Made by a program: the position numbers and the translations under genes
Shown here: in pieces, positions 26,182-34,964 of the stretch
Layout: every line of letters starts with the position of its first letter
Position numbering within the stretch: position 1 is the stretch's first letter
The notes under the pieces: generated by a model
What the model saw: only the letters and a program-made list of their open reading frames with translations
Database searches by the model: none
Told to the model about the DNA's origin: nothing
Source of the DNA: Gemmatimonadota bacterium
Lineage (GTDB): Bacteria; Gemmatimonadota; Gemmatimonadetes; Longimicrobiales; RSA9
Direction of reading: 5' to 3'
DNA: 34,964 nt
Assembly: GCA_017881445.1 (NCBI GenBank)
Contig: JADGQX010000016.1
Location: forward strand, 1 to 34,964

Positions 26182-29100
26182 TTAGAAGTTGTACCGCACC
26201 ATCAACTGCATCTGATAGTTCGAGTTCAGGTTGTTGTAGTCGACCGTCGTGATGCTGGAGTCGAAGTTCAGGATCGGGTGGCTGTCACCGGCGTACAGGG
26301 TGCTGGTGCTCCCCTTCGACAGCGAGCGGTAGGTGAGCAGCGTCACGTCGCTGTACGGCGTCCCCTGGTGGCCCCAGTTCTTGTTCAACAGGTTGCCGAA
26401 ATTGAAGATATCGAGCTGGAGCGACACGTTCTGCATGCCGATCGTCTTCAGCGACTGGCGCGCGCTTACGTCCAGCTTGTGCATGAACGGCGCGGTGCAG
26501 CTATTGCGCGCCATGATCTGGCCGCGCTGGTTCTTCAGGCAGTCCCAGGAGTTGATGAACTTCTCGAAGGCGGTGGCCTGGTCGGCGGCCGAGACCGTCG
26601 GCTTGCCGCTCGCCGTCAGCGTGGTGAACTCGATCTCGTTCGGGTCGGTGACGTTCTTGGGAACGTAGATCGGGTCGTCGCCGCTGGAGCCGTTGCCGTT
26701 CAGGTCGCTGCTGTAGACGAAGGCGAAGGGCGAGCCCGACGCGCCCTGGTAGATCGCCGAGATCGTGGTCTGCGTCGGCAGGGTGTAGCTGCCCTGGGCG
26801 ACGATGCGGTGCCGCTGCTCGAAGAGCGAGCGGGTGGCGGTCATGTCCGTCTGGTCGCCGGCCCAGACGCGGCCGTAGCGCCAGTTGGAGATGGCCGTGC
26901 TGGAGCTGAGGCTCTGCACGTCCCAGCCGCGGTTGTAGGTGTAGGCCACGCTGCCCTGCCAGTGGTCGGCGTAGCGGCGATTCAGCATGGCGGTCAGGTT
27001 GTAGTAGTGGTCCTTGTTCTCGTTGCCCACATCGATGACCGTGTTGCGCGTCGAGACCACGAGCACCGGCTTGCTCGGCTGCGGTCCGTACATGACGCGG
27101 CCGTGCGCGTCCACGCCCTGGGGGCCCTTGAGGGCGATGTTCGTGTAGAAGGGCGAGTAGAGCGACTTCGTGTACAGCCCCTCCACCGTCGCGATCAGGT
27201 TGTGCCCCAGGTCGCGGTCGTAGCCGAGAGTGCCGCGCGCCGTCTGCGGCATGCGCGTGCCCGGCTGGACCAGGTCCACCTCACCGCCCGCGGCCGCCGT
27301 CGTGCCGTTCGAGCATGCGGTGGGCGGGCTGGCGATCGCCGCCTTGCTGAACGTCGGCGCGGTTCGCGTGCAGGTCAGCAGGTTGACGCCCGTCTTGCCC
27401 GAGTTCTGGAAGGCGTTGCTCAGCCAGACGTACGCGGGGTGGCCCGTGAAGGCGCCGACGCCGCCGCGCAGCTGGTTGACCTGGTCACCCGTCATGTCCC
27501 AGTTGAAGCCCACGCGCGGCGACCACTGCAGGTTGCCCGACGGGATGTCGGCCGTATTGCGACCGAAGTTCGTCAGGATGTCCGGGTTCGTCGGCGGCGT
27601 GCTGGAGAACGTCGGCAGGTCGAGGCGCAGACCCATGTTGAAGGTCAGGTTGCGCGCGGCGCTCCACTGGTCCTGGATGTAGGCCGCGTAGCTCGATGTC
27701 GTGAACTGCACGTGCCCATCGCCCGTCCCGGGTGCCGGCACGCCCACGATGTAGGAGTACGCCAGCCCCCTGGAGAGCGAGTCGGGTGTGTCGAACGACC
27801 ACACGCCGTGCGACGCCTGGGCGTACAGGTTCAGCGCCTTGAAGATCTGGTCCTCGACGCCGATCACCACCGTGTGCGAGCCGAACGGCAGCGTGATGTT
27901 GTCGGTGAGGTCCAGGATGTCCTGCTCGACGTTGTTGCCCTGCGAGTAGCGCTCCGTGCCGGCGACCACGTAGGCCCCCGGGATGGTCACGCCCACCTGC
28001 GGCGTTACGTCACCGCTGACGGAGACGCGCGGATCACGGATACGCGTGTAGGCCGCACGGAACTCGTTGAACATGCCGCTCTGGAAGTTCGTGCGCAGCT
28101 CGAACGCCGGCGAGTGCTTGCTCGAGGCATACTGGTACTGGTTCGACGTCAGCGACAGCTGCGGCGCCGCGCCGCTGCTCCCGCGCGTGAGCGCCTGGCT
28201 CGTCGCGTTGCTGTAGTTGTAGCGGAGCACGGCCGAACTGTTGAAGGGCAGGTCCGCGAAGTCGAGGCGCGCGAACAGGTTGGTCAACGGGTTCTTCAGC
28301 GGAATCTGGCCCGCATCGCCCGTGGGCATCCCGTAGCTCGCCAGGATCGACTTGGCGTTGGCCACGTCCGTTGCCGAGACGGGGAACGCCTTCGAGCCCA
28401 GGTAGATCCCGGTGTTCGGAGTGCTGTACGCCTGCCACTCGGCGTTGGCGAAGAACATGATCTTGTTCTTCACCACCGGGCCGCCCAGCGTGGCGCCGTA
28501 TTGGTACTGCGAGAAGTTGTTGATGTAGCTCTGCGAGCGCGCGAAGCTCTGGTTGCGCCCGTTCCCGTAGATCGACCCGTGCAGCGTGTTGGTGCCGCTC
28601 TTCGTCACCGCGTTGATCAGCAGCCCGGCGAAGTTGCCCTGGCGCACGTCGAACGGCGTCAGCAGCACCTGGTATTCCTTCACCGCCTCGATCCCGATCG
28701 ACTTGCCGTTCGCCTGCCCGCCCGGCTGCCCGGTCGAGCCCAGGCCGAACAGATCGGTCTCGGTCGTGCCGTCGATCTGCACCTGGTTGTAGCGGTTGTT
28801 GACGCCGCCGCCGGAGAGGCCGCCGTTCTCGAGCGTCGTGGACACCTGCGGCGTCAGCTTCACGAAGTCCGTGAAGTTCCGGTTCAGCGAGGGCAGCCGG
28901 TTCATCATCGAGTCGGAGACGGTCGTGAACACGCCCGTGCGCGTCGGGCTGATCGCCTCGGTCGACTTCTGGGCCGTGACCTCGATCGCGCTGATCTCCA
29001 CCGCCTGCTGCGTGAGCTTGAAGTCGATGCGGGTGGTTTGGCTCAGCGCCAGGTTGACTCCCGTCCGCTGCGACGCCGCGTAACCCAGCCCTTCCACCCG

Positions 29101-29367
29101 GACCGTGTACGGACCGCCCGGGGCGAGCCCCTGGATGTAGAAGCGCCCATCACTATGGGTCAGGGATCCGGTCTGCGCGCCCGTCTGCGTCTGACGGACG
29201 ATCACCTGCATGCCCGGCAGTCCCTGCCCGTTGTCGCCGGCGACCGTCCCGGTCACCGCTGACGTCGTCACGCCCTGGGCCAGCAGGCCGCCTGCGCCCA
29301 TGGCGACCGTGAGCACGAGCATACCCAACTGGGCGAACACTCGACGTGCCCTGCTAATACGCATCAT
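26182..29367 (-). CDS. Oar-like TonB-dependent receptor with carboxypeptidase-regulatory domain
   Basis: A 1061-residue outer-membrane protein. It has a signal peptide (LVLTVAMGAGGLLAQ), a carboxypeptidase-regulatory-like beta-sandwich at about 30-115, a plug domain at about 130-260 with FDVRQGNFAGLLINAVTKSG, and a large beta-barrel ending in aromatic-terminated QLMVRYNF, the usual barrel-assembly signal. This arrangement is that of Oar-type receptors, which import or export undefined ligands using TonB energy. I set the start at the ATG at 29367, with GGGAG seven bases upstream, rather than further upstream in the leader. A promoter with TTGACG-N18-TAACTT lies 77-106 bases before the start. 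Confidence 0.88.
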   Translation of the reverse strand: MMRISRARRVFAQLGMLVLTVAMGAGGLLAQGVTTSAVTGTVAGDNGQGLPGMQVIVRQTQTGAQTGSLTHSDGRFYIQGLAPGGPYTVRVEGLGYAASQRTGVNLALSQTTRIDFKLTQQAVEISAIEVTAQKSTEAISPTRTGVFTTVSDSMMNRLPSLNRNFTDFVKLTPQVSTTLENGGLSGGGVNNRYNQVQIDGTTETDLFGLGSTGQPGGQANGKSIGIEAVKEYQVLLTPFDVRQGNFAGLLINAVTKSGTNTLHGSIYGNGRNQSFARSQSYINNFSQYQYGATLGGPVVKNKIMFFANAEWQAYSTPNTGIYLGSKAFPVSATDVANAKSILASYGMPTGDAGQIPLKNPLTNLFARLDFADLPFNSSAVLRYNYSNATSQALTRGSSGAAPQLSLTSNQYQYASSKHSPAFELRTNFQSGMFNEFRAAYTRIRDPRVSVSGDVTPQVGVTIPGAYVVAGTERYSQGNNVEQDILDLTDNITLPFGSHTVVIGVEDQIFKALNLYAQASHGVWSFDTPDSLSRGLAYSYIVGVPAPGTGDGHVQFTTSSYAAYIQDQWSAARNLTFNMGLRLDLPTFSSTPPTNPDILTNFGRNTADIPSGNLQWSPRVGFNWDMTGDQVNQLRGGVGAFTGHPAYVWLSNAFQNSGKTGVNLLTCTRTAPTFSKAAIASPPTACSNGTTAAAGGEVDLVQPGTRMPQTARGTLGYDRDLGHNLIATVEGLYTKSLYSPFYTNIALKGPQGVDAHGRVMYGPQPSKPVLVVSTRNTVIDVGNENKDHYYNLTAMLNRRYADHWQGSVAYTYNRGWDVQSLSSSTAISNWRYGRVWAGDQTDMTATRSLFEQRHRIVAQGSYTLPTQTTISAIYQGASGSPFAFVYSSDLNGNGSSGDDPIYVPKNVTDPNEIEFTTLTASGKPTVSAADQATAFEKFINSWDCLKNQRGQIMARNSCTAPFMHKLDVSARQSLKTIGMQNVSLQLDIFNFGNLLNKNWGHQGTPYSDVTLLTYRSLSKGSTSTLYAGDSHPILNFDSSITTVDYNNLNSNYQMQLMVRYNF

Positions 29368-29443
29368 CGCGCAACTCCCGAGGTGCGGTGAGTGGTGTGT
29401 GGGCGGCCTTCGCCGCCATCGGAAATGGGGGGCTCCGGCTTTC

Positions 29444-29473
29444 AAGTTAGCGGCCCGAAGGGGCCAGCGTCAA
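29444..29473 (-). promoter_or_regulatory. Promoter of the first TonB-dependent receptor
   Basis: On the minus strand TTGACG (29468-29473) is followed after 18 bases by TAACTT (29444-29449). The second receptor gene has the same layout. The -10 part fits the TAnnTT form known from Bacteroidota promoters, relatives in the FCB group. Confidence 0.5.
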
Positions 29474-29653
29474 CGAAAACGTAACTGGCGCCCGGCCAAT
29501 CACTTGGCGCCGGCTCGCGCCGGGGGGCTGACCGGGGTGTTCGGGCGGCCCGGGGACACCCCGCGGGGCCGGGCCGCCGGGCTCAGTGGAGGCCGGGTAC
29601 GGCCCGCGCCGCAGAGTCGTTCTGCGCGCTGGAAATCATGCCCAGGCCAAAGC
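29450..29653. other. Spacer between receptor genes with inner hairpin
   Basis: No gene is supported. A 10-bp stem (GGCGGCCCGG, arms near 29544 and 29578) encloses the palindrome CCCCGCGGGG. Function is unknown. Confidence 0.4.
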
Positions 29654-29687
29654 GGGCGGGGCACCGGGGAGACCCGGTGCCCCGCCC
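29654..29687 (-). terminator. Terminator of the second TonB-dependent receptor
   Basis: A perfect 15-bp stem (GGGCGGGGCACCGGG, complement at 29673-29687) with a 4-base loop lies 15 bases past the stop codon of the minus-strand receptor. The following minus-strand bases contain only TTT. Confidence 0.75.
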
Positions 29688-29701
29688 GGCCGCCCGCGGG
29701 C

Positions 29702-32700
29702 CTACTCGAACGTGTAGCGCAGCATGAACTGGACGCGGTACACGTCGTTCACGCCGGCCGTGGGCTCGAAGGTGTGGTTCATCAGCTCGAACGACGACGG
29801 CCCGGCGATGTTGCGGAGCCGGTACTGCGCCCGGCCCGAGGCATCCACAGGTCCGCCCTGGGTCGAGGAGGGGACGACCAGCGGGGTGTTGTTGACCATA
29901 CGCTGGCCGATGCCCCAGTTCTTGTTCAACATGTTGCCGACGTTGAGGACATCCGCGCGGAACTCGATGGAGTTCCGCTTCCCGACGACGTCGGTGAACA
30001 GCTGCTGCGCGAGGCTGACGTCCACGTTGGTGACGGCCGGGAGGAAGACGGCGCCACGGACAGCGTACTGGCCGCGGTGCTTGCTCAGGTACGAGTCCTG
30101 GCTGATGTAGGCATCCCAGGCCGCGGCCTGCTCGTCCGCGGAGAAGGTGCGGGCCGGAATACTTCCGGACGCAGCCTGCGTATACGCCTGGAAGTTCATC
30201 TCCGACTTGTCCTTCGGGATGTAGATCAGGTCGTTGCTGGTTCCGCCGTCGCCGTTCAGGTCACCTGAGTAGACGTAGCTGGCGTTGCCGAGAGTGAAGT
30301 TCTGAGCGAAGACCGACATGCTGGTGGCGCCGAACTTCAGCCACTGCGCCCGGTAGGTCGCCGCCCCGAAGACGCGGTGGCCGGGCGAGGAGGCCGAGAA
30401 GCCTAGCCCCGGGTTGTTCGGGTCGCCCGGGTTCTGGTTGGCGTTCCAGGAACCGAAGGCGATCGACCCGGCATCCACCGTGTTCTTCGCCTGGCCGTAG
30501 CTATAGCCGGCCTTGAAGTAGAGTGCCTGGGTCATCGGCCGCTCGACCGAGGCGGCGAAGTTCCAGGAGCGGCCCTGGCTCTCGTTCTTCAGCACCACGG
30601 CGTCCTGAACGATCGAGTGGATCTTCGTGTTCGTCCAGCGGACGCGGTTGTCGGGCCCGACGAAGCGCGCTTGGGGCGCGGGCATGTCGGCGTTGATGTA
30701 GTAGACACCGTTCACGTCACGGTTGAAGATGAACTCGCCCGTGCCGATGAACCCGAAAGGCAACCGCTGATCCAGCGCGATGTCGCTACGCCAGACCTGC
30801 GGGAACTTGAAGTTCGGGTCGGTGAGCGCCAGCTCGAAGGTCGACGCGGGCGCACCCGTGACCGTCTTGGGCTTGTAGGTGTCGGGATTCGGGTTGAACG
30901 GATAGGCCTTCGTGTTGCTGACGGAGAGGAAGCCCGTCAGCACGCCCGTGTTGCCGACCTGGTTCGAGATCCAGACGTAGGCCGGCGGGCCGGTGAACAC
31001 GCCCGTGCCGCCGCGGACCTGCGTGCTGCGATCCCCCCGGACGTCCCAGTTGAACCCGACGCGGGGCGACCAGAGCGGCTTCGCGTCCGGCAGCTTGCCG
31101 CTGTTGTACTGTACCGAGTTCCCGTTCTCGTCGCGGAAGTGCATCGTATCCGCGATGGCGTTGTCGTACGCCGTGTTGCCGAACTTCGGCACGTCCATCC
31201 GCACCCCGACGTTCAGCTTGACGTTGTTCGTCGGCCGCCACTCGTCCTGCACGTACGCGCCGCTGTAGAACACGTCCAGCGGCTGGACCGGCTTCACCTG
31301 CCCCGGGATGTTCGACCAGCGCACCTGGAAGGTGCGCAGCGTGATCGGGGAGGTGGTGCGGTTGGGGTTCGCCAGGTAGTCGTTGGCGTCGGTGTAGAAG
31401 TCCGCCAGCGAGTTGTAGACGTAGGCACTCTGCTTGCCGGGGAAGAACACGTTCTCCGAGTGGTACTTCTCCGCGGTCACGCCGAAGCTGAACGTGTGCT
31501 TGTCGGCGAAGATCGAGAAGTTGTCCTGGAACTGGTACGTGCCATAGCGCAGCTCGTTGTTCGGCGTGAACGGCTCGCTGCCGAACGAGGTGTAGACCGA
31601 CCCGGATTCCAGGACATCGACGAAGGGGAAGAGCGTACCGACGTCGCCGCGGCTCTCGTCCTGGTAGGTGTAGCCGGTGATGACGCTGTTGGCCATGTTC
31701 CGGCCCACCATCGCGTTCCACTCACCCACGACCGAGCGGATGTTCTCCAGGATCGTGTAGTTCGAGGCCTGGAAGTTCAGCCCCGTCGTGTTGGAGCGTC
31801 GGGTGCCGAAGCCGAGAGATGAGGAATTCGACAGCAGCACGTCGGTGCTGGAGTTGAGCTGCGTGTAACGGAGGCTGATCTTGTTCCGGTCATTGGCGTT
31901 GTAGTCGAGCTTGCCCAGGAAGCGCGTCGCCGGCGTCTGGAAGCTGTAGTTCTGATAGGGGCCCGTGGTGTAGTTGAACTTCGACCCCAGGAAGCTGCTC
32001 AGCGAGTCCAGGCTGGGCACGCGCACGCGCGTGATGTTGCCGCCGACGGTCTGAGAGCCGGTATTGGCCACGAACGTGGTCGCCGGCTGCGTCAGCGGCT
32101 CGTGCTCCAGGTTGGCGAAGAAGAACAGCTTGTTCGGGATGATCGGCCCGGAGAGCCAGCCGCCGATGTTGTGGTTGTTGAACGTGCCCGGGTTATACGT
32201 GTTCGCGCCCGCCTTCGTGCCCACCAGGCTGTTGTTGCGGAACGAATAGTACATCGACCCCTTCATGGCGTTCGTGCCGCTGCGCGTTACCGTGTTCACG
32301 CCGGCGCCCACGAAGTTGCCCTGCCGCACGTCGAACGGTGCCACGTTGACCTGGATCTGTTCGATGGCCGCGAGCGAGATCGGCGCGACGCCCGTGCGGT
32401 CACCGGGCGTGTTTCCCAGCCCGAACGAGTTGTTGAAGTAGGAGCCGTCCACCGTGATGTTGTTCAGCCGGCTGTCCTGCCCCACGAACGACATGCCCCC
32501 GCCCGACTGCGGCGTGAGCCGCGCCACCGACTCGAGCCGGCCCGTGATCGTCGGGAGGTTGGCCAGCTCCTCGCGGCTGATCTGCGTGGCCGCCCCGGTG
32601 CGCTCGGCGCTCATGATCGAACCGCGCTCAGCCGTGGCCTCCACCGCCGCGATCTCCACCGCCCGCTCCTGCGCCGTGAACGCGACCGACGTCGTGGTCC

Positions 32701-33025
32701 CGAGGTTCACGAACACGTTCTCCTTCGGTGGGCTCGTGTAGCCGATGTGGCTCACGGTCAACCGGTACGGCCCGCCCACCCTCATGTTCGGAATCGAGAA
32801 TCGACCATCGGACCGGGTCAGCGCGCCGTACGTGCTCTTCGAGGGCACGTGCACGGCGAGGACGCTCGCGCCTACCACGGGGTTGTTCTGCGCATCCAGC
32901 ACACGGCCCGCGATCGCTCCTGTCGTCACGCCCTGCCCGAGCACGCCGCCCGCGCCCAACAGCAGCGCGCACCCGACCCCGGCGACGGCGCGCAGGCTGC
33001 TCGCCCACGTACCCACCCACTTCAT
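29702..33025 (-). CDS. Oar-like TonB-dependent receptor with carboxypeptidase-regulatory domain (paralogue)
   Basis: A 1107-residue outer-membrane receptor, paralogous to the gene downstream of it. The order is a signal peptide ending near GGVLGQ, a carboxypeptidase-regulatory-like domain (about 32-115, with AGRVLDAQNNPVVGASV), a plug (about 125-260, with FDVRQGNFVGAGVNTVTRSG) and a barrel ending in QFMLRYTFE. Unlike its neighbour the final residue is Glu after Phe. The start has GGAGG three bases upstream. Divergence between the two proteins is large outside shared motifs, so they probably handle different ligands. No partner lipoprotein of the SusD type is nearby. Confidence 0.88.
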   Translation of the reverse strand: MKWVGTWASSLRAVAGVGCALLLGAGGVLGQGVTTGAIAGRVLDAQNNPVVGASVLAVHVPSKSTYGALTRSDGRFSIPNMRVGGPYRLTVSHIGYTSPPKENVFVNLGTTTSVAFTAQERAVEIAAVEATAERGSIMSAERTGAATQISREELANLPTITGRLESVARLTPQSGGGMSFVGQDSRLNNITVDGSYFNNSFGLGNTPGDRTGVAPISLAAIEQIQVNVAPFDVRQGNFVGAGVNTVTRSGTNAMKGSMYYSFRNNSLVGTKAGANTYNPGTFNNHNIGGWLSGPIIPNKLFFFANLEHEPLTQPATTFVANTGSQTVGGNITRVRVPSLDSLSSFLGSKFNYTTGPYQNYSFQTPATRFLGKLDYNANDRNKISLRYTQLNSSTDVLLSNSSSLGFGTRRSNTTGLNFQASNYTILENIRSVVGEWNAMVGRNMANSVITGYTYQDESRGDVGTLFPFVDVLESGSVYTSFGSEPFTPNNELRYGTYQFQDNFSIFADKHTFSFGVTAEKYHSENVFFPGKQSAYVYNSLADFYTDANDYLANPNRTTSPITLRTFQVRWSNIPGQVKPVQPLDVFYSGAYVQDEWRPTNNVKLNVGVRMDVPKFGNTAYDNAIADTMHFRDENGNSVQYNSGKLPDAKPLWSPRVGFNWDVRGDRSTQVRGGTGVFTGPPAYVWISNQVGNTGVLTGFLSVSNTKAYPFNPNPDTYKPKTVTGAPASTFELALTDPNFKFPQVWRSDIALDQRLPFGFIGTGEFIFNRDVNGVYYINADMPAPQARFVGPDNRVRWTNTKIHSIVQDAVVLKNESQGRSWNFAASVERPMTQALYFKAGYSYGQAKNTVDAGSIAFGSWNANQNPGDPNNPGLGFSASSPGHRVFGAATYRAQWLKFGATSMSVFAQNFTLGNASYVYSGDLNGDGGTSNDLIYIPKDKSEMNFQAYTQAASGSIPARTFSADEQAAAWDAYISQDSYLSKHRGQYAVRGAVFLPAVTNVDVSLAQQLFTDVVGKRNSIEFRADVLNVGNMLNKNWGIGQRMVNNTPLVVPSSTQGGPVDASGRAQYRLRNIAGPSSFELMNHTFEPTAGVNDVYRVQFMLRYTFE

Positions 33026-33371: not shown

Positions 33372-34403
33372 CTAGGATGTCTGCGCGACTGCCTCGGGCT
33401 CCCCCTCCGCGGCCAGGAACCGCTCCGCCAGCTCCACGAACTCCCGCGAGCCCAGGTAGAGCGGCGTGCGCTGGTGCAGCGACGTCGGCTGGATGTCCAG
33501 GATGTCTTGCTGGCCGTCGGAGCCGCGGCCGCCCGCCTGGGCGGCGATGAAGGCCAGGGGCGCAGCCTCGTAGAGCAGGCGCAGCTTGCCCTGCGGGCTC
33601 TTGCTGTCGGCGGGGTACATGAAGATGCCGCCGTAGAGGAGCGTGCGGTGGAAGTCGGCGACCAGGGAGCCGATGTAGCGGGAGCTGAAGGGCGCCGGGT
33701 TGGCGCCGTCGATGCCCTTCATATGGTCCACCAGGCGGCGCTGCCCCGGGCTCCAGCGCGAGTAGTGGCCGTCGTTGACGGAGCAGATCCGCTGCGGCGG
33801 CGTGGGGATGCGGATGTCCTCGTGCGAGAGCAGGAACTCGCCGATGGAGGGGTCGAGGGTGAAGCCGTGCACGCCCGCGCCGGTGGTGTAGACCAGCATG
33901 GTGGAGGAGCCGTAGACGACGTAGCCGGCGGCGACCTGGCGGCTCCCCGGCTGCAGGCAGTCCTCCAGGCAGCCCCGGGGCTGCTCGGAGATCTTGCGGT
34001 GAATGGAGAAGATGGTGCCGATGGAGACGTTGACGTCGATGTTGGAGCTGCCGTCCAGCGGGTCGTAGAGCAGGGCGTACTTGCCCGAGGGGAATTGGGA
34101 CGGAATCTGGATGACGTCCTCCTCCTCCTCCGAGGCGATGCAGCAGAGCATACCGCCGTGGTCCACGGCCTTGAAGATCACGTCGTGGGCGTACAGGTCC
34201 AGCTTGCGCACCGCCTCGCCGTGCACGTTGGTGGTGCCGGTCTCGCCCAGGATGTCCACCAGGCCGGCCTTGTTGACCTCGCGCACGATCATCTTCGCGG
34301 CCAGGGCGATCTCGTAGAGGATGTTGCTGAGAGCGCCCGTCGCGGCGGGGAACCTGCGCTCCTGCTCGATGATGTGGCGTTCGATCGTGATGACCGACGT
34401 CAT
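33372..34403 (-). CDS. fbp: Fructose-1,6-bisphosphatase, class I
   Basis: Mg-dependent phosphatase converting fructose 1,6-bisphosphate to fructose 6-phosphate in gluconeogenesis. The 343-residue length is typical. Visible features are the metal-binding segment YDPLDGSSNIDVNVSIGT near 112-130, ASEEEEDV with the acidic ligands, and the active-site signature GKLRLLYEAAPLAFIAAQAG near 275-295. The ATG at 34403 has a perfect AGGAGG seven bases upstream. A hairpin separates it from the small gene upstream, so it may have its own promoter in that short gap, which I cannot place. Confidence 0.96.
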   Translation of the reverse strand: MTSVITIERHIIEQERRFPAATGALSNILYEIALAAKMIVREVNKAGLVDILGETGTTNVHGEAVRKLDLYAHDVIFKAVDHGGMLCCIASEEEEDVIQIPSQFPSGKYALLYDPLDGSSNIDVNVSIGTIFSIHRKISEQPRGCLEDCLQPGSRQVAAGYVVYGSSTMLVYTTGAGVHGFTLDPSIGEFLLSHEDIRIPTPPQRICSVNDGHYSRWSPGQRRLVDHMKGIDGANPAPFSSRYIGSLVADFHRTLLYGGIFMYPADSKSPQGKLRLLYEAAPLAFIAAQAGGRGSDGQQDILDIQPTSLHQRTPLYLGSREFVELAERFLAAEGEPEAVAQTS

Positions 34404-34467: not shown

Positions 34468-34902
34468 CTACCTCTCCTCTTCCGCCGCCCGAGCCTCCAC
34501 TTCGTACGGGTTCGCCGCGTAGCCGTGGCGCACGAAGTTCCAGGCGTAGCTCGCCGGGAACGTGAAGGGGTGCGCCTGCCACTGGCGCACGTGCGTCAGC
34601 TCGTGCTTCAGCAGCCGGCTCGTGAGCGGCACGTCGGAGGTCTTGCCCGATGCGATCGTGTTCAGATTCGGGACGGTGTTCAGAAGTTGCGCATCAACCG
34701 CCCTCAGAACCCCTTGGCGCTGAACCAGATACGAGGCGACACCCGATGCCGCGAGCCCGAGCCCGGCAACCGCAAGAATGGAGACCACGATCCGGGATCT
34801 CACCGAGAGAATGCGCCGCCGTCTGATGCGAACCACACGTCCGCGCCATCGAGGTTTGCGCATGTGGGTCATGGTGCCAGTATCCGTGAGCACCTCGGCC
34901 AT
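34468..34902 (-). CDS. Chimeric frame: histidine-kinase-like N terminus joined to a HExxH metallopeptidase-like C terminus
   Basis: A 144-residue frame in two parts. Residues 1-85 have a basic start, one membrane helix (about 38-60, RIVVSILAVAGLGLAASGVA) and YLVQRQGVLRAVDAQLLNTV, which look like the N terminus of a sensor histidine kinase of actinobacterial type. Residues 86-144 hold LLKHELTHVRQWQ (His100-Glu101, His104) and resemble the C-terminal part of DUF4157-like zinc-binding proteins. No kinase domain follows. In the first part 26 of 85 codons end in A or T, in the second only 3 of 59. A recent fusion or an assembly join near 34640-34650 would explain this. Confidence 0.5.
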   Translation of the reverse strand: MAEVLTDTGTMTHMRKPRWRGRVVRIRRRRILSVRSRIVVSILAVAGLGLAASGVASYLVQRQGVLRAVDAQLLNTVPNLNTIASGKTSDVPLTSRLLKHELTHVRQWQAHPFTFPASYAWNFVRHGYAANPYEVEARAAEEER

Positions 34903-34931
34903 CAGGTCCAGGCCGCGTGGTTTCCCAATGT

Positions 34932-34947
34932 ATACCCCAGGGGGTAT
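34932..34947. promoter_or_regulatory. CsoR-like operator palindrome
   Basis: ATACCCCAGGGGGTAT is a perfect palindrome with 7-base arms and a 2-base centre. This is the G-tract form (TACCC...GGGTA) bound by CsoR-family copper or sulfur sensors. It lies 30 bases upstream of the chimeric frame and at the window edge, so the gene it controls may be outside. Confidence 0.5.
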
Positions 34948-34964
34948 GCTGTGGATGACGAACG

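Follow-up and report, generated by a model that had tools for sequence, protein, structure and literature searches.

At most orthologue loci in the relatives of the genome studied here (L004 to L030), a small gene for an HExxH protein lies between a comEC-type gene and fbp, which encodes a class I type fructose-1,6-bisphosphatase. fbp follows the HExxH gene on the same strand at 26 of 27 orthologue loci, L020 being the sole locus without it downstream. An upstream ORF that is similar from locus to locus is present at 26 of the 27, and the remaining locus (L029) has only ~240 bases upstream of the match to the HExxH gene. Pfam detected Competence and Lactamase_B domains in the upstream ORF of L010, which marks it as comEC-type; the upstream ORFs at the other loci were assigned to this type by similarity only. 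All 27 orthologue loci have a native N-terminal part before the HExxH stretch with the pattern P-GV--R-GR-VP-IGG-L-GM--PAAAVTLGRTIVVHP, and two of the fuller orthologue pieces score just over the 22-bit cut-off of PF13699 (eCIS_core), at 23.7 and 24.3 bits.

The second type of protein relevant to this locus is an actinobacterial sensor histidine kinase. In six of the best kinase loci, which we aligned, the reading frames extend over 521 to 621 residues from stop to stop, and L153 has HAMP, HisKA, and HATPase_c domains. Of the 20 loci of the first, order-level set, 19 contain the phospho-acceptor motif of kinases.

The window analyzed here, i.e., the whole stretch of DNA under study, is the entire 34,964-nucleotide contig JADGQX010000016.1 (C78) of a Gemmatimonadota bacterium, and its last base, 34964, is the contig end. 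The source genome amounts to 4.75 Mb in 420 contigs, with an estimated completeness of 99.56% and an estimated contamination of 3.98%. An earlier note on this DNA, for which this contig end was not visible, had pointed to an abrupt break in family and codon usage inside one reading frame, and had left a natural domain swap and a misassembly as the two explanations.

Results

The ORF in question (34468-34902, minus strand) has 144 codons for amino acids and is open, and its reading frame continues open to the contig edge. It comprises ~87 residues of the start of an actinobacterial sensor histidine kinase, here referred to as the head, followed in frame by ~55 residues of the native HExxH protein, here referred to as the tail (Table 1). 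The kinase part stands in place of the native N-terminal part of the HExxH protein and runs into the HExxH stretch and C-terminal part of that protein.

Table 1. Features at the right-hand end of the window
Feature	Coordinates	Strand	Basis
fbp, class I type fructose-1,6-bisphosphatase, conserved downstream neighbor	33372..34403	-	PF00316 and PF18913 above cut-off
Native C-terminal part of the small HExxH protein gene	34468..34620	-	Orthologues; codon usage z +0.2
Zone containing the join	34618..34648	.	Kinase similarity ends; orthologue similarity starts; codon split score nearly flat
Foreign head, the N-terminal end of an actinobacterial sensor histidine kinase (one membrane helix after a cytoplasmic start)	34649..34902	-	Homology; codon usage z
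Contig tip upstream of the ATG of the head	34903..34964	-	Contig stops at 34964; frame open to the edge

Using a codon table made from fbp and the beta-barrel gene at 29702-33025, we obtained z = −9.0 for the 87 codons of the head (GC3, 0.70) and z = +0.2 for the 57 codons of the tail (GC3, 0.95). For reference, GC3 is 0.94 in native genes and 0.80 in six kinases of the donor type. All 69 control windows of 87 codons from fbp and the gene at 29702-33025 scored above the head (minimum, −2.0), although this control is flattered because the windows were drawn from the same two genes that made the table. With a table based on three native genes, the best two-part codon split scored 50.8 bits at position 34666, a score that was reached by 3 of 5,000 shuffles of the codon order. 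The two-part ORF gave nothing above the curated cut-offs of Pfam and NCBIfam, against which the ORF and its halves were compared, and neither HisKA nor HATPase_c was found in it by Pfam. For PF13699, the whole ORF and the tail alone remained below the cut-off, with 14.6 and 15.9 bits, respectively.

The two halves have their relatives in different lineages. Among the 61 genomes comprising the window's own and 60 relatives, the tail has matches in 28, the own genome included, with the best other match at 73% identity. For the head, a threshold of E ≤ 1e-4 gave matches in 46 of the 396 genomes sampled from the order to which a named Arthrobacter locus belongs, and in 99 of 398 genomes of a single actinobacterial family within the order of Arthrobacter sp. 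PsM3, with the best match at 65% identity over residues 6 to 86. This donor family may be the Microbacteriaceae. Among eight named Micrococcales genomes, three gave weak matches at E ≤ 0.01. Applied to the 60 relatives of the window's genome, the threshold of E ≤ 1e-4 left no match to the head; the best hits in the own lineage were weak (E of 2.2e-4 and 2.9e-4, in G033 and G050), and the next best match in the own genome had an E of 0.03. In a tblastn cross-comparison (threshold, E ≤ 0.01), 40 of 49 kinase loci and none of the 27 orthologue loci matched the head, and all 27 orthologue loci and none of the 49 kinase loci matched the tail. Searching the halves separately, as the earlier note had proposed, thus placed the tail in the window's own lineage and the head in the actinobacterial family. 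These results bear out the break in family and codon usage as well as the description of the two parts, i.e., a kinase-like membrane N terminus with foreign codon usage and a tail with native codon usage.

We also looked for the origin of the head in other places. A search of the window's genome did not recover the missing part of the kinase, the best of 49 kinase matches having 31% identity. A comparison of the head with plasmids, by DNA and by protein, gave no matches; comparison with solved structures gave a single match with an E of 1.1; and a pattern search of genome contigs returned 595 stretches, none of which was confirmed. These searches did not turn up the fragment a second time, and donor matches top out at 65% identity.

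To place the join, we compared where each similarity ends. The alignment of the kinase relatives reaches ~34642-34650, and agreement with the native orthologues runs leftwards from ~34630-34618, with the window ORF matching from about DVPLT on. Together, these limits place the join at ~34618-34650. Between 34666 and 34624, the codon split score hardly changes, so that codon usage does not place the join more finely. The position of 34640-34650 given previously therefore falls at the upper edge of the supported range.

Orthologues with the same two-part structure, which the earlier note had named as counterevidence, were not found when the whole ORF was compared with 395 genomes from the phylum. 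This search gave matches in 75 genomes at E ≤ 0.001, the own genome included. Sixty-five of the 74 other matches align from residue 88 or later only; most of these were counted by alignment span rather than by reading the loci individually. Six matches begin earlier (at residues 9, 17, 35, 41, 48, and 81), all of them at loci with the native N terminus, and tblastn detected the head in none of these six. Two matches are confined to the head region (G1010 and G050; E of 7e-4 and 9e-4), and one, in G850, covers residues 59 to 138 with three stops.

In the window, fbp adjoins the tail gene, and the upstream side of the locus is lost at the contig end. In the own genome, a comEC gene on the minus strand of another contig, C367, breaks off at the contig edge (bases 2-394; 61% identity). 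The Competence domain of this gene extends to 258 of the 270 positions, and no lactamase part remains. A second comEC match, on C251 with 30% identity, was taken as a paralogue. Using a profile built from nine orthologue pieces, we searched the window's genome for the native N terminus of the HExxH protein and found no convincing copy; the profile returned the tail described here and four weak matches. One of these, on C141 (E of 0.002), was read as an aldose-epimerase-like gene and set aside, and the other three had E values of 0.7 to 2.3. With L010 as a ruler, the distance from the C367 edge to the join in C78 is ~1.1 kb. Because the native N terminus was not found and comEC is cut at the C367 edge, there appears to be a native gap of ~1.1 kb where the foreign piece sits, and the gene order suggests that C367 and C78 are neighbors.

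Since the window is the whole contig, only ~320-345 bases lie to the right of the join. This contig tip, presumably also donor DNA between 34903 and 34964, contains a near-perfect palindrome at 34932-34947 (ATACCCC-AGGGGGTAT) upstream of the kinase-like head, which may resemble the operators of copper-sensing CsoR-type regulators. On the left side of the join, the conserved native order of the tail gene and fbp is retained. Chimerism on this side was assessed by comparing the order of these two genes and otherwise by a Pfam scan of nine ORFs. Further to the left, two adjoining large genes on the minus strand (26182-33025) each have CarboxypepD_reg and OMP_b-brl_4 domains and are probably a tandem pair.

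Discussion

The two-part reading frame is most readily explained as a chimeric contig end produced in the library or during assembly, and we put the probability of this reading at roughly 0.93. The chromosome would most likely have the order comEC, small HExxH gene, and fbp, and ~1.1 kb, spanning the last part of comEC and the first part of the HExxH gene, would be absent from the assembly. To the broken native end, ~320-345 bases from the front of an unrelated actinobacterial sensor histidine kinase gene would have become attached, and the open frame across the join would be a coincidence with no need for a special cause. Features expected of a chimeric end are present, in that the relatives of the two sides belong to different lineages, the join is close to the contig end, and the native continuation is missing or at another contig edge. 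We infer that the join is a product of library preparation or of assembly rather than of an event in a cell. Several considerations count against a chimera. An in-frame join on the same strand should arise by chance in about 1 of 6 cases, the donor was matched to 65% identity at most and the searches gave no further copy of the fragment, and the native gap would also be expected if the foreign insert were real and the assembly had come to an end within it.

The latter situation corresponds to a real, recent insertion or rearrangement, in which actinobacterial DNA between comEC and fbp broke the HExxH gene, the frame stayed open by chance, and the contig ends inside the insert. The ORF is intact and in frame, in agreement with such an event; however, the foreign codon usage of the head is wholly unadjusted, the genome lacks a detectable remainder of the kinase, the head is confined to this genome among the relatives at the threshold used, and comEC is separately broken at a contig edge, as in an ordinary assembly gap. 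We therefore regard an insertion as very unlikely. It is more improbable still that the first part of a kinase operon from an actinobacterium was captured very recently into the comEC-fbp interval in a real event that created a membrane-anchored HExxH fragment under a foreign promoter. Least probable of all is a functional fusion of a kinase membrane anchor to an HExxH peptidase-like tail. The hydrophobic stretch in the head could anchor the tail and the join is in frame, but this join drops the conserved front that the HExxH protein has at every orthologue locus, everything of the kinase beyond its N terminus is gone, including the HAMP, HisKA, and HATPase_c domains seen in L153, and a fusion of this structure was not found in the other genomes of the phylum that were searched or in the kinase and orthologue loci. 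Of the two explanations previously offered, misassembly is thus favored, in that neither a two-part orthologue in the genomes searched nor the native half in this assembly was found, comEC is cut at another contig edge, and the foreign piece is a contig tip. We found no support for a domain swap.

The concern about trusting everything to the right of the join covers only ~320-345 bases, because the contig ends there. We suggest that C78 be trimmed to the right of ~34617, i.e., by the last 350 or so bases, so that databases do not take up a spurious fusion protein or a spurious gene transfer. More generally, cases of this kind can be judged without reads from the full structure of the orthologues combined with a search of the other contig edges for the half that is missing.

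Compared with the small HExxH protein encoded in the comEC-fbp interval of relatives, the window ORF has a tail of up to 73% identity and fbp downstream, but it lacks the native N-terminal part and scores below the PF13699 cut-off. Compared with actinobacterial sensor histidine kinases of the L153-L158 type, it has an N terminus of up to 65% identity over residues 6 to 86 but carries this N terminus only, without the HAMP, HisKA, and HATPase_c domains of L153. From chimeric contig ends in fragmented draft or binned genomes, the locus differs in that an open frame was kept, by chance; it shares with them the presence of two lineages on one contig, a join within ~350 bases of the contig end, and a missing native continuation.
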